Program-made: the position numbers and the translations under genes | Shown here: in pieces, positions 26,889 through 35,316 of the stretch | Layout of the letters: every line of letters starts with the position of its first letter | How positions within the stretch are numbered: the first letter of the stretch is position 1 | The notes under the pieces: model-generated | Database searches by the model: none | What the model saw: the letters and a program-made list of their open reading frames with translations, nothing else | What the model was told of the DNA's origin: nothing | Assembly (NCBI GenBank): GCA_016219965.1 | Contig: JACRJM010000002.1 | Coordinates: forward strand, 1 to 48,232 | Length of the DNA: 48,232 nucleotides | Source of the DNA: Candidatus Schekmanbacteria bacterium | GTDB lineage: Bacteria > Schekmanbacteria > GWA2-38-11 > J061 | Reading direction: 5' to 3'

Positions 26889-26931
26889 TTAACAGAAGAG
26901 TAAATCGCCATAGTTGAAGGGAAGAAATGAA

Positions 26932-27951
26932 ATGTCAGTTATAACAACTACTGAATATAAGACATTTTTAAAAGAGATTAAGGAGCGCATATATAAAGCC
27001 CAGTATGACGCACTTAAAGCTGTAAACAAAGAGCTTATAAACCTGTATTGGGACATTGGGAAATCAATCGTGGCAAAGCAGGATAAGCTCGGCTGGGGCA
27101 AATCTGTAGTAGAAAATCTAGCTAAGGATTTGCAAAAAGAATTTTCTGGGATACAGGGATTTTCTGCTAGAAACCTCTGGAATATGCGGACATTTTATTT
27201 GACTTACAAAGAAGATCAAAAACTGCAGCCATTGGTTGCAGAAATTAGCTGGACCAAAAATGTCATTATTATGGAACGGTGCAAGGACGACATCCGGCGG
27301 GAATTCTACCTCAAGACAACAAAGAAGTTTGGCTGGACAAAAGATGTTCTGATTAACCAGCTTGAAGCAGGTGCATTTGAACGGTATATGACAAATCAGA
27401 CAAACTTTGATAAAGCCGTGCCGGAAAAATACCGTCATCAGGCAAAGCTTGCAGTGAAAGATGAATATTCCTTCGACTTTCTGGAACTTGGCGAAGAACA
27501 TTCGGAAAAAGAACTCGAACTGGCACTTTTAGAAAATGTGAGGAAGTTCCTGATTGAGATGGGTGGCTACTTTACCTTTGTGGGTAATCAGTACCGTTTG
27601 GAGATAGACAATCAGGAGTTTTTTATTGATTTGCTGTTATATCACCGGCAACTGAGGTGTCTTGTGGCAATAGAATTAAAGATCGGCGCATTCAAGCCTG
27701 AATATGCCGGCAAGATGCAGTTTTATCTTTCTGCCCTGAACGATAGAGCAAAGCTTCCTGATGAGAATCCATCTATAGGCATTATTTTGTGCAAAGACAA
27801 AAGCCGGACATTTGTTGAATATGCACTGAAGGATACTAAAAAAGCTATAGGCGTATCTACCTACAAACTGACTGGAAAACTTCCGCGCGAGCTAAAAAAA
27901 TATCTACCGTCTCCTGAAGAGATGATTGAAAGAATAAAGTATCTGGAATAG
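26932..27951 (+). CDS. DUF1016/YhcG family PD-(D/E)XK nuclease-fold protein (copy 1)
   Basis: The N-terminal half (about residues 5-155) is the DUF1016_N helical domain, with Y-W-D-I-G-K-S-I, G-F-S-A-R-N-L-W-N-M-R and a later S-W-T-K-N-V-I-I-M. The C-terminal half is the YhcG nuclease-fold domain: F-F-I-D-L-L-L-Y-H then A-I-E-L-K-I-G-A-F-K and G-K-M-Q-F-Y-L, giving the Asp...Glu-x-Lys catalytic set. Length 339 is normal. The ATG at 26932 has an AAGGGA site; an in-frame TTG at 26914 is unlikely. Members are common, patchily distributed and often near mobile or defence genes, but no partner is seen here. Biochemical role is not established. Confidence 0.9.
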   Translation: MSVITTTEYKTFLKEIKERIYKAQYDALKAVNKELINLYWDIGKSIVAKQDKLGWGKSVVENLAKDLQKEFSGIQGFSARNLWNMRTFYLTYKEDQKLQPLVAEISWTKNVIIMERCKDDIRREFYLKTTKKFGWTKDVLINQLEAGAFERYMTNQTNFDKAVPEKYRHQAKLAVKDEYSFDFLELGEEHSEKELELALLENVRKFLIEMGGYFTFVGNQYRLEIDNQEFFIDLLLYHRQLRCLVAIELKIGAFKPEYAGKMQFYLSALNDRAKLPDENPSIGIILCKDKSRTFVEYALKDTKKAIGVSTYKLTGKLPRELKKYLPSPEEMIERIKYLE

Positions 27952-29917: not shown

Positions 29918-29946
29918 TTGACAACTTCCGGGCTTTAGTTTACACA
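29918..29946 (+). promoter_or_regulatory. Promoter for the tungstate transport operon
   Basis: TTGACA (perfect) at 29918-29923, 17 bases, then TACACA at 29941-29946 (3 of 6, keeping the TA and second A). It lies just upstream of the structured leader at 29981-30131 and far enough from the tupA start to transcribe the whole leader. The weak -10 is the only objection. Confidence 0.5.
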
Positions 29947-29980
29947 GTTTTCACTTTTTGAAGGAACATAATTACTACTC

Positions 29981-30092
29981 CGAATTCTGTTACCTAATGT
30001 GCGATGGCGTGATGGGGCAGAATCGAAAGGGTAATGCTGGAAACGGCATTGCCTCCCGAATGGGAAAGGAGAGAGAATGTTTTCCCCAAGTT
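29981..30092 (+). ncRNA. Structured leader of tupA, candidate molybdenum/tungsten cofactor (Moco) riboswitch
   Basis: The leader holds several nested helices. 29981-29989 pairs with 30018-30025 (one bulged base). 30031-30039 pairs perfectly with 30044-30052 around a GAAA tetraloop. CTCCC near 30053-30057 can pair locally with the purine-rich 30062-30071, or GGGAAA there can pair with TTTCCC at 30081-30086. GTTACC (29989-29994) is complementary to GGTAAC (30110-30115) inside the following terminator, so pairing would disrupt it. Being directly upstream of a tungstate importer, it best fits the Moco/Tuco class; that identity is an inference from context and shape, not a covariance-model match. 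Confidence 0.6.
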
Positions 30093-30131
30093 AGCCGGTA
30101 CCAGTAAATGGTAACCGGTTTTTCTTTTTTA
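30093..30131 (+). terminator. Intrinsic terminator at the end of the tupA leader
   Basis: A stem of nine paired positions with one bulged A (CCGGTACCA at 30095-30103 with 30109-30118, 5-base loop) is followed by a T-rich run of about twelve bases. It ends 49 bases before the tupA ATG, so it must be bypassed for expression. This is the expression platform expected of a transcription-controlling riboswitch. Confidence 0.8.
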
Positions 30132-30179
30132 TACGGCCTATCAGGATAACAAACCATTAAAATACTATTGGAGAAGAGA

Positions 30180-31007
30180 ATGAAGAAGTTTTTCATAATA
30201 GTTTCAGTTTTATTCATTTTCGCAGCAACAACAACTGTAAACTCCCATGCAGAGACACGTCTCCGAATGAGTACGACAACAAGCACTGAAAATTCCGGAC
30301 TGCTGCCGGTCATTATAACCCCCTTTGAGAAGGCTAATGATGTCAAAATAGATGTCATAGCCGTAGGGACAGGAGCAGCGCTGAAACTTGGCGAGAACGG
30401 AGATGTTGATCTGGTCTTTGTTCATTCGCGCCCTGATGAAGATAAATTCGTGGCTTCGGGTTTTGGTATTGACCGGCGCGATGTCATGCATAATGATTTT
30501 GTAATTCTGGGACCTAAAAATGATCCTGAAAATTTAAAAGGCGCAGGCTCAGCTCTCGAAGCTTTTAAAAGACTTGGTGCAGGGAAATGTGAGTTCATTT
30601 CACGCGGCGACAACTCAGGGACACACATAAAAGAAAAGGAATTGTGGAAGCTGGCAGGTGTTTCACCCTCAGGCAGTCCGCTTGCCAAATGGTATGTTGA
30701 GACAGGACAGGGAATGGGTGCCGTGCTTCAGATAGCAAATGACAAGCAGGCTTATACGCTTGCCGACCGGGGGACCTACATTGCCTATGAAAAGAAGGTT
30801 GACCTTGTAATTCTCTATGAAGGGGACAAGACCTTATACAATCCGTACGGCATCATTGCTGTTAACCCGGCTAAATTTCCACATGTAAAATATGACCTCG
30901 CGAAGAAGTTCATTGAATACATCACAAGCTCTGAAGGGCAGAAGATTATTGCTGATTTCAAAGTGAACGGCAAAGAACTTTTTTTCCCTGATGCGATTAA
31001 AAACTAA
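30180..31007 (+). CDS. tupA: Tungstate ABC transporter substrate-binding protein TupA
   Basis: TupA binds tungstate with very high affinity in the periplasm and delivers it to TupBC. The first 24 residues are a Sec signal ending A-Q/A-type (…N-S-H-A). The mature start M-S-T-T-T-S-T-E-N-S-G-L-L is the TupA signature, whose Thr-Thr-Ser oxyanion-binding motif separates it from ModA. R-G-D-N-S-G-T-H near residue 140 is the second family motif. The start at 30180 has a GGAG site 6 bases upstream; the TTG at 30168 would misplace the signal. Length 275 is normal. It is the first gene after the leader terminator. Confidence 0.93.
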   Translation: MKKFFIIVSVLFIFAATTTVNSHAETRLRMSTTTSTENSGLLPVIITPFEKANDVKIDVIAVGTGAALKLGENGDVDLVFVHSRPDEDKFVASGFGIDRRDVMHNDFVILGPKNDPENLKGAGSALEAFKRLGAGKCEFISRGDNSGTHIKEKELWKLAGVSPSGSPLAKWYVETGQGMGAVLQIANDKQAYTLADRGTYIAYEKKVDLVILYEGDKTLYNPYGIIAVNPAKFPHVKYDLAKKFIEYITSSEGQKIIADFKVNGKELFFPDAIKN

Positions 31008-31010
31008 GAA

Positions 31011-31502
31011 ATGAAAAATATATTTTTTATCATAATATTGGCGGCTAACATTGTTTTATTGTCTGCTTCCCTGCAAAATGCGGGATGGTGGGGAGACGAG
31101 GAAATAACTTTGGAGAAAGCATCTTTAAATGACGGCACAACGCTTCTCGTATCACCAAATCCGGACAATAACAGGAATGTTCTGGTCAACTCTACTATTA
31201 AGCTCGAATTCAGCAGGAAGATTACAGACACAACTGTCAGCATAATCACTAACCAGCCCAATAAAACGCTCTTTATATTGACAAAAGCACTGACAAAAGC
31301 CGGTGGTGCCGTTGTGCCTGTAACTGTTACGGCAAACAAATCTCCGGTAACCGTTAAACCTATCAGCGATTTAGAACCTCAAACGAAATATATCCTTACC
31401 GTCAAGGCAGGTATTACATCGAATAACAGAGCTTACTGGACTAAGACTGATATAGTCATAGCATTCACTACGAAAAGCCAGAAAGCGGAACAACATAAAT
31501 AA
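31011..31502 (+). CDS. Secreted Ig-like (Big_5 type) protein inside the tup operon
   Basis: A 163-residue exported protein: a Sec signal covers the first about 22 residues. The mature part looks like one bacterial Ig-like Big_5 domain, with V-S-P-N-P-D-N-N near the start, V-N-S-T-I-K-L-E-F-S-R-K-I and L-E-P-Q-T-K-Y-I-L-T-V-K-A-G-I near the end. It starts 3 bases after tupA and is followed by tupB, so it is part of the operon. Tup operons normally contain only A, B and C; whether this protein helps tungstate capture or only hitchhikes is unknown. Confidence 0.75.
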   Translation: MKNIFFIIILAANIVLLSASLQNAGWWGDEEITLEKASLNDGTTLLVSPNPDNNRNVLVNSTIKLEFSRKITDTTVSIITNQPNKTLFILTKALTKAGGAVVPVTVTANKSPVTVKPISDLEPQTKYILTVKAGITSNNRAYWTKTDIVIAFTTKSQKAEQHK

Positions 31503-31584: not shown

Positions 31585-32274
31585 ATGGACTATCTTATTG
31601 ATTCCTTCTACTCTGCTGGCGGACTCATCTTCGGTTTTGATCCAGAGGTTTATTTCATTGTCTGGACATCGGTGCGCATTTCGCTTATTGCCACCATTCT
31701 TGCCGCGGTTCTGGGAATTCCTCTGGGAGTATTGATTTCGCTTAACCGGTTTAGAGGTAAAGGCGCAGCAATCCTGATACTAAATACATTGATGGCGCTT
31801 CCTACAGTTGTCGTCGGGCTTTTCTTCTACGCACTTTTAAGCCGACGGGGGGTTTTGGGAGATTTTGGCCTACTTTACACCCCCTGGGGAGTGATAATCG
31901 GTGAGCTGTTCCTCGCTCTTCCTATTGTTGTAAATTACACCATCTCAGCAGTACAGGGAATAGACAAAAGGCTTCTTCTTACATGTAAATCACTTGGGGC
32001 ATCACCGGTCCAGGAGGCATCAATAATATTGAAAGAGGCAAGATTTGCAGTGATGGCTGCTGTAGTTGCAGGATTCGGAAGGATCATCGCAGAGGTCGGA
32101 GTTGCCATGATGCTTGGTGGTAACATAAGGGGTTTCACCCGCACCATGACAACAGCAATTGCGCTTGAAACAAGCAAGGGGGAGTTTGAGCTTGGGCTTG
32201 CTCTCGGCATACTTCTGCTCGCTGTAGCCTTTGCCGTAAATGGCGCGCTTTATAAGATTCAGAAGGGGAAATAA
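31585..32274 (+). CDS. tupB: Tungstate ABC transporter permease TupB
   Basis: The 229-residue permease has five to six membrane helices and the ABC permease EAA-loop (residues about 130-160, C-K-S-L-G-A-S-P). The G-F-G-R-I-I-A-E-V-G-V-A-M-M-L-G-G-N-I segment near residue 160-185 is the TupB/ModB-type translocation region. It forms the channel for tungstate crossing the inner membrane. It follows the Ig-like gene by 82 bases, longer than other gaps in the operon but without an evident promoter. Confidence 0.92.
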   Translation: MDYLIDSFYSAGGLIFGFDPEVYFIVWTSVRISLIATILAAVLGIPLGVLISLNRFRGKGAAILILNTLMALPTVVVGLFFYALLSRRGVLGDFGLLYTPWGVIIGELFLALPIVVNYTISAVQGIDKRLLLTCKSLGASPVQEASIILKEARFAVMAAVVAGFGRIIAEVGVAMMLGGNIRGFTRTMTTAIALETSKGEFELGLALGILLLAVAFAVNGALYKIQKGK

Positions 32275-32295: not shown

Positions 32296-33291
32296 ATGAG
32301 CATTGCATACAGACTGGAAAACATTTCTTTCGGATATGGTTCGCGCACTGTACTTAATATCCCTGAGCTTGAAATTGAAGCAGGAAGAATCACTGCACTT
32401 GTCGGCCCCAATGGCTCAGGCAAGACTACTCTTTTAAATATGCTTTCTTTTATCGAGATTCCGGGAAAAGGAGAGATTTCCTTTTTCAACGAGAAGGTGA
32501 AAGACGGGGATGTACTTGCCTTTCGCAGGCGAGTGGGACTTCTGCTTCAAAATCCATATCTCTTCCATTCCTCTGTGATATCTAATGTAGAGGCAGGGCT
32601 TAAGATCCGGGGGATATCTCCCCATGAAAGGCACAGCATATCTGCGGATGCACTGGCAAAAGTCGGACTTTTCGGTTTCGAGGGGAGAAAGGCGACATCT
32701 CTTTCAGGAGGCGAGGCGCAGAGGGTTGCCCTTGCACGGGTGCTTGCCCTTCAACCTCAGGTCATATTACTCGATGAGCCGGCAACCTATATGGATGCAG
32801 AAAGTGAAAGACGCACGGAAGAGGTTATCCTTGAGCTTAACAGGGAGAAGGGCGTTACAGTTATATTTACGACACAGGATATTCTGCGTGCACAGGCTCT
32901 CGCAGACAGGGTGCTCAGCATCTTCAGGGGAAGCATTGTCTCAGCATCGCTTGTAAATCTTTTCCGCGGGAAAGTCTCTGAAGACGGAAAACAATTCCAT
33001 ACAGAGAAAATTGTCATTTTTATTTCCGGCGGGAGCGGCAACGAAACTCATATCTCTGTTGACCCTTCTGATATAGTTCTTTCCAAAGAATCACTCCATT
33101 CAAGCATGAGAAACTCTTTCAAGGGGCGGATAGTCGCGATTTTCGAAGAGAATGGAAAGGTGCGCATCGAAGTTGAAGCAGGAGAACGCTTCCAGTCCCT
33201 TATCACGCGCGACTCTCTAAAAGAAATGGGTCTTCATATCGGCGACGATGTCTGGCTCTCCTTCAAGTCAACTGCCGTGAAGGTGTTTTAG
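32296..33291 (+). CDS. tupC: Tungstate ABC transporter ATPase TupC with C-terminal TOBE domain
   Basis: The ATPase drives tungstate import. Walker A G-P-N-G-S-G-K-T-T is at 37-45, the signature L-S-G-G-E-A-Q-R about residue 136, Walker B V-I-L-L-D-E-P-A about 155-162. The last about 60 residues (from S-M-R-N-S-F-K-G-R-I) look like a TOBE domain, as in ModC, where it can sense oxyanion levels; TupC proteins often lack it. Length 331. It is the last gene of the tup operon; no clear terminator follows before the promoter at 33370. Confidence 0.9.
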   Translation: MSIAYRLENISFGYGSRTVLNIPELEIEAGRITALVGPNGSGKTTLLNMLSFIEIPGKGEISFFNEKVKDGDVLAFRRRVGLLLQNPYLFHSSVISNVEAGLKIRGISPHERHSISADALAKVGLFGFEGRKATSLSGGEAQRVALARVLALQPQVILLDEPATYMDAESERRTEEVILELNREKGVTVIFTTQDILRAQALADRVLSIFRGSIVSASLVNLFRGKVSEDGKQFHTEKIVIFISGGSGNETHISVDPSDIVLSKESLHSSMRNSFKGRIVAIFEENGKVRIEVEAGERFQSLITRDSLKEMGLHIGDDVWLSFKSTAVKVF

Positions 33292-34281: not shown

Positions 34282-35316
34282 TTATTCCAATTGTTTTTTA
34301 AGTTCTTCTTTGCTCGGAAGGTATAGCTGGTACTGCCGGGCAAAAATATGCTCATTATCCTCGGGCAAGGTGAATTCAACAACTGCCTTCTTAGCTTCTT
34401 TGCATAAAATTATTCCAATGGTGCTGTTTTCATCCGGGCATTTCATCATGCGGTCATAGTAGTTCACATACATTTGCATCTGCCCTATATCCTGATGCTT
34501 TAGTTTCCCTATTTTCAAGTCTATTAGAACAAAACACTTTAGCAGGCGATTATAAAACACAAGGTCCACAAAGAAGTGTTCTTCATCAAATGTAAAGCGC
34601 TTCTGTCTGCCTACGAAGAGAAAACCTTTTCCAAGCTCAAGGAGAAAGTGCTCGATCTTATTGATAATAGCTGTTTCAAGATCGCTTTCCGTATAGCTGG
34701 CGTCTTCTTTCAATCCGAGAAATTCCAGTACATAAGGTTCTTTGATTGCATCCTGCGGGGTCGTTAGGACATGCCCTTTTTGACTTAATTCTTTCACTCG
34801 GTGTTTATCACGGCTAAGTGCAAGCCGTTCATAAAGAGATGAATTAAACTGACGTTCAAGTTCCCGGAGTGACCAGTTTTGTTTTGCAGCTTCTATCTCA
34901 TAAAAACTACGTTCTGCATCAGAAAGCCTTATGAGAAAGACATAATGAGACCAGCTCAGAGGAAAGGTTGTCTGAGAAATACGCGACGCTGTCTCGGATT
35001 TCGCAGACATTGTCTGCGAAATTTTTGCGGAGTATAGCAGGAAGAACTTCCGCATGTTTTCAAGGTTTCTCTCGGAATAGCCCTTGCCGAATTCTTTTGT
35101 CAGATCAAGACTCAGGTTTTTCAAAGTTTCCTCGGCATAGCCCGCCCGCTTTTTCCCCTGCTGCTCATCTACCACGATCATCCTGCCTATTTCAAAATAG
35201 GTCATCACCATAGCAGTGTTGATGTTCCTTGCTACAGCATTTCTCGCTTCGCGCAGGAGAGTTTTTATATTTTCAAATAATTTTTGATGCGATAGTTTCT
35301 TTTCTATTTTATCCAT
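34282..35316 (-). CDS. DUF1016/YhcG family PD-(D/E)XK nuclease-fold protein (copy 2)
   Basis: A 344-residue protein of the same family as the gene at 26932 but clearly divergent. The N-terminal helical domain has M-T-Y-F-E-I-G-R-M-I and G-Y-S-E-R-N-L-E-N-M-R-K-F-F. The nuclease-fold part has F-F-V-D-L-V-F-Y-N and L-I-D-L-K-I-G-K-L-K; the catalytic pair is Asp-x-Lys here against Glu-x-Lys in copy 1. Between the two domains (about residues 98-118) lies a tandem 7-residue repeat. It stands alone on the - strand, with an AAGGA site about 10 bases before the ATG. No restriction or modification genes flank it. Confidence 0.9.
   Translation of the reverse strand: MDKIEKKLSHQKLFENIKTLLREARNAVARNINTAMVMTYFEIGRMIVVDEQQGKKRAGYAEETLKNLSLDLTKEFGKGYSERNLENMRKFFLLYSAKISQTMSAKSETASRISQTTFPLSWSHYVFLIRLSDAERSFYEIEAAKQNWSLRELERQFNSSLYERLALSRDKHRVKELSQKGHVLTTPQDAIKEPYVLEFLGLKEDASYTESDLETAIINKIEHFLLELGKGFLFVGRQKRFTFDEEHFFVDLVFYNRLLKCFVLIDLKIGKLKHQDIGQMQMYVNYYDRMMKCPDENSTIGIILCKEAKKAVVEFTLPEDNEHIFARQYQLYLPSKEELKKQLE
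34969..35031 (-). repeat. Three tandem 21-base repeats with a 25-base palindrome inside the DUF1016 gene
   Basis: Units starting at 34969, 34990 and 35011 (+ strand, TGTCT-led) repeat every 21 bases, i.e. seven codons, so the frame is kept. They encode the I-S-Q-T / S-A-K-S pattern of the linker. A perfect inverted repeat, 12-base arms around one central base, covers 34998-35022. The units differ by a few bases, indicating duplication followed by drift. Confidence 0.8.

Follow-up and report, generated by a model that had tools for sequence, protein, structure and literature searches.

The window, that is, the whole 48,232-nt stretch of Candidatus Schekmanbacteria DNA that was analysed, carries a tup operon on its forward strand, preceded by a promoter-like element, a structured leader and an intrinsic terminator (Table 1). 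The matches of TupA (NF041772) and TupB (NF041773) both fall below the strict equivalog cut-offs; TupA is 66% and 58% identical to the TupA proteins of relatives, and the ATPase with a TOBE domain was taken as TupC. The Big_5 gene between tupA and tupB was not seen in the related tup operons examined. YhcG/DUF1016-type nuclease-like genes flank the region, at 26914-27951 (by Pfam) and 34282-35316 (by eye).

The host genome has 13 AFOR_N matches (the N-terminal domain of AOR, a tungsten enzyme), one TupA, one ModA on contig C7 with no Moco RNA found near its gene, and nine matches to the Molybdopterin oxidoreductase family in about eight places. Judged from gene content alone, it is therefore likely that the host uses tungsten. 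Our literature search found no papers on tungsten in Schekmanbacteria.

Table 1. Features of the tup leader and operon (window positions) and of related loci.
Feature	Position	Strand	Basis
Promoter-like TTGACA, 17-base spacer, weak -10 TACACA	29918-29946	+	read from sequence
Moco RNA aptamer, P3-less form	29966-30087	+	RF01055
P1 stem	29976-29981 with 30068-30073	+	CM alignment; pair counts in ten related leaders
P2 with GAAA-tetraloop receptor (CCUAA 29993-29997 / AUGG 30012-30015)	29984-30023	+	CM alignment
P4 stem, up to 11 pairs, GAAA tetraloop 30040-30043	30029-30054	+	CM alignment
P5 and conserved GGAAAGG joint (30063-30069)	30055-30069	+	CM alignment
Predicted anti-P1 hairpin, 30068-30073 with 30080-30085	30068-30085	+	free fold of growing transcript
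Intrinsic terminator, stem 30094-30119, T-rich tail 30120-30131	30094-30131	+	hairpin -13.8 kcal/mol plus T-run
tupA, tungstate-binding protein	30180-31007	+	NF041772, E 7e-80, under 400-bit equivalog cut-off
163-aa small protein with Big_5 Ig-like domain, within operon	31011-31502	+	PF13205, E 3e-11
tupB, permease	31585-32274	+	NF041773, E 1e-66; NF038017 above cut-off
tupC (taken as), ATPase with TOBE domain	32296-33291	+	NF041774/NF040840; PF03459 TOBE
Second Moco RNA with terminator, host genome (G000) contig C3	L012:9479-9600	-	
Downstream PEP-CTERM protein gene region, same contig	L012:8441-9247	-	
AOR leaders of two relatives compared, P3-sized hairpin in one only	L018:4958-5121 vs L014:9707-9834		

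The Moco RNA (RF01055) was the sole gathering-level Rfam match (release 15) across the window, scoring 63.7 bits (gathering threshold 36 bits; E = 4e-13). The match covers positions 1-135 of the model, its full length, and the P3 positions are deleted in the CM alignment. The fold of the leader is more stable than those of all 200 dinucleotide shuffles (200/200, z = -3.5). The GNRA tetraloop on P4 and its receptor in P2, both features of Moco RNAs, occur in the leader, and tupABC lies directly 3' of the aptamer, in keeping with the placement of these RNAs before genes for molybdenum or tungsten uptake, cofactor synthesis or enzymes. The GAAA-capped stem of nine base pairs in the original prediction is real and corresponds to P4, although the stem has up to 11 pairs.

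In an alignment of ten related aptamers, 89.4% of pair cells are standard and 19 of the 32 pairs show changes on both sides, including 7/9 pairs of P2 and 7/11 of P4 among relatives, while the GGAAAGG joint is identical throughout. The covariation values were reached by none of 500 shuffles, and structures slid along the same alignment gave only 40-46% standard pairs. The architecture of P1, P2, P4 and P5 is backed by strong covariation. The Moco/Tuco-type riboswitch originally predicted is thus borne out by the Rfam model, by covariation among homologous leaders, by gene context and by the missing P3; a new RNA class was rejected given the RF01055 match, and it is near certain that the leader is a member of the Moco RNA family.

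The elements on either side of the aptamer were partly as predicted. TTGACA at 29918-29923 is a perfect and plausible -35 box, and most related leaders likewise have TTGACA or TTGACT, 26-49 nt before their aptamer; however, the -10 sequence is weak and the promoter was not listed by a consensus promoter scan. The predicted terminator before tupA is present, with a one-base bulge in its stem, and was missed by a simple terminator scan; its tail ends (30131) 48 nt before the tupA ATG (30180), not 49.

Relatives and a second copy

Eleven Moco RNA copies were found across four Candidatus Schekmanbacteria genomes, one of which (G002) belongs to the same order as the genome of the window. They precede tup operons (in 4/4 genomes), AOR operons, modABC and a porin gene, and one lies on the host's contig C3. 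Over 168 nt, including a homologous terminator, this C3 leader shares 77% identity with that of the window; behind it come a 27-codon remnant of tupA (13/27 identical, E 6e-7 against a short target) and then a PEP-CTERM gene, which has a ribosome-binding site of its own. The C3 locus is a decayed tup copy, whose riboswitch was possibly co-opted by the PEP-CTERM gene.

As the C3 paralog shows, such a leader can persist after its genes are lost, and the window aptamer could by the same token be a relic followed by a terminator that is now constitutive. The leader of the window keeps the conserved core, the tetraloop and the receptor, and its tup genes are intact, which makes this very improbable.

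Porin genes lie in or beside Moco-RNA-led tup operons at five loci (L013:12596-14083, L015:3037-4575, L019:1-309, L023:4228-5475 and L041:3704-4954). Porin_O_P was confirmed in four of the five; the L019 gene is cut by the contig end and was judged by its N-terminus. These recurrent Porin_O_P genes are candidate outer-membrane tungstate channels. No Porin_O_P was found in the host genome of the window, and the porin link therefore does not apply to the window operon.

P3 and the cofactor sensed

P3-less Moco RNAs track tungsten genes, and Regulski et al. (2008, PMC2408646) connected this form with Tuco, the cofactor that contains tungsten. The P3 stem, whose absence marks the Tuco variant, is missing from the window aptamer, and we infer that the riboswitch probably senses Tuco. 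No later open papers testing Tuco binding were found in our literature search.

The gene context of P3 was surveyed with a model (R1) built from the Schekmanbacteria Moco RNAs and run on 80 tupA loci of other genomes. Outside the phylum, 13 loci had co-oriented Moco RNA upstream of tup. Of these, nine lack P3 (L029, L030, L048, L053, L072, L023, L041, L028 and L067, with L030 and L041 in tandem), most of them with terminators, and four bear P3 (L055, L032, L047 and L096). By P3, the tup loci divide into 13/17 without and 4/17 with the stem. The enrichment of P3-less forms (Fisher p about 0.0009) is indicative only, since the loci are non-independent and nearly all RNAs used to train R1 lacked P3, which biases the comparison. 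Whole-genome searches of the 13 genomes with these loci outside the phylum revealed further P3-less RNAs, before AOR genes. Moreover, one Atribacteria genome has a P3-bearing RNA before a modB-type permease and a P3-less RNA before tupA.

The survey mostly agrees with the P3 rule that Regulski et al. put forward (PMC2408646). It should be noted that the absence of P3 is not a strict Tuco marker: tungsten-gene leaders of other phyla include P3-bearing ones, such as the Spirochaete tup and AOR leaders (L032:3534-3708, L047:5650-5832 and L131).

Several leaders have features of their own. At L032, the tupA ATG follows closely on the GGAG of P1, an arrangement of the translational type. Tandem Moco RNAs precede tup operons in three phyla (L041:3088-3526, L030:5259-5663 and L019:3629-3943). 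By eye, the P3-less Moco RNA L128 (G013:C159:47662-47780) lies before an NAD-type aldehyde dehydrogenase-like gene, possibly a tungsten-free stand-in for AOR, and the P3-less RNA L127 (G008:C46:6172-6292) is followed by genes for a secreted protein and an apparent TonB-dependent receptor.

Within Schekmanbacteria, modABC is preceded by P3-less RNAs in both G001 and G002. In addition, an 8-pair hairpin occupies the P3 position in the AOR leader of G002 but is absent from that of G001, and the AOR proteins behind the two leaders are 95% identical. Because of this pair, of the P3-less RNAs before modABC and of the P3-bearing Spirochaete tup and AOR leaders, we tentatively consider, at somewhat less than even chances, that selection of the molybdenum or the tungsten cofactor does not depend on P3; another part of the aptamer would then make the choice, or the RNAs would not tell the two apart.

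The modABC leaders and the AOR pair, like the nine Molybdopterin oxidoreductase family matches of the host, also favour a reading with the same RNA family and the same OFF switch, in which the riboswitch would bind Moco, or Moco and Tuco alike. We regard this as rather unlikely: the host has Moco RNA only before tup and the decayed tup copy, not before modA on C7, and elsewhere P3-less RNAs precede tup and AOR genes.

Switching of the tup transcript

An intrinsic terminator stands between the aptamer and tupA, as transcription attenuation requires. We consider it likely that the leader is a P3-less (Tuco-form) Moco riboswitch which attenuates tupA-Big_5-tupB-tupC transcription and is OFF when the cofactor is plentiful, this direction being probable. 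Plentiful cofactor would hold P1 closed, the downstream terminator would then form freely, and tungstate import would be off. When the cofactor is scarce, P1 would be replaced by the anti-P1 hairpin, and its freed 5' strand would pair briefly with the terminator 5' arm and loop (30096-30098 and 30103-30106), allowing read-through.

Folding of the growing transcript is compatible with such a kinetic OFF switch. The predicted probability of P1 is about 0.9 just after its 3' strand is made and about 0.06 once 30080-30085 emerges, and the two states differ by a predicted 1.6 kcal/mol, a gap narrow enough that ligand binding could shift the balance. The freed P1 5' strand is predicted to pair with the terminator 5' arm and loop with a probability of about 0.3-0.6 before the terminator completes. 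This read-through step, a folding prediction, is the weakest part of the explanation; the complete terminator beats the predicted antiterminator, weak in the window leader, by about 10 kcal/mol. The anti-P1 pairing is not conserved in the C3 and G003 leaders.

Across 14 terminator leaders, predicted pairing between the terminator 5' arm and the 3' region of P5 and P1 averages 0.40, compared to 0.16 for shuffled arms, an excess that an OFF switch would predict. No such excess is seen for the terminator arm of the window (0.02 vs 0.02), nor for those of C3 and L030a. The OFF logic is thus best supported at the level of the family. A mutually exclusive antiterminator is weakly predicted in the window leader and more strongly in several others. 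A universal antiterminator formed from the P5/P1 strand was rejected: the trend exists across leaders, but does not extend to that of the window.

Given that folding alone does not fix the direction and that the window antiterminator is predicted to be weak, the cofactor might instead promote read-through into tup. Such an ON switch would be contrary to the feedback expected of an importer. Moreover, the terminator arm of most other terminator leaders is predicted to pair with the P5/P1 3' strand that the ligand sequesters, giving OFF, and in E. coli Moco causes repression through the moaA element (PMC2408646). We therefore judge an ON switch to be quite unlikely, and retain the OFF reading.

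The original prediction had proposed another antiterminator, in which GTTACC of P2 (29989-29994) pairs with GGTAAC (30110-30115) in the terminator 3' arm. The exact 6-base complementarity is true, but folding predicts no such pairing (ensemble probability 0), and forcing it gives -43.9 kcal/mol compared to -52.1 kcal/mol for the free fold, a cost of 8.2 kcal/mol. It would also need the last-made arm of the terminator and break P2, and the complement is missing from the paralogous C3 leader. On energy, topology and non-conservation, this proposal was rejected as scarcely credible.

Known systems and significance

The window riboswitch is ordinary in kind, while its host phylum is little-studied. 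It resembles the RF01055 Moco RNA motif (PMC2408646) in its full-length match, in its P1, P2, P4 and P5 stems with the GAAA tetraloop and receptor, and in its position before an oxyanion importer, with a terminator platform as in some members; it differs in lacking P3. The closer likeness is to the P3-less putative Tuco RNAs of Syntrophomonas wolfei and Moorella thermoacetica (PMC2408646), which share the missing P3, the tungsten-gene context, the terminator after the aptamer and the tandem copies, here in the relative G002. Unlike those RNAs, that of the window leads an operon with an added Big_5 gene, and relatives add Porin_O_P genes. The E. coli moaA Moco riboswitch belongs to the same aptamer family, but has P3, answers Moco and not tungstate, and overlaps the ribosome-binding site, whereas the P3-less aptamer of the window has a terminator 3' instead.

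The finding places tungsten-cofactor-type control in Candidatus Schekmanbacteria, a phylum that the abstract of the founding paper (PMC2408646) does not name. Moreover, the natural pairs described here, namely AOR leaders with and without P3 and P3-less RNAs before both tup and mod, make the discrimination between molybdenum and tungsten directly testable.
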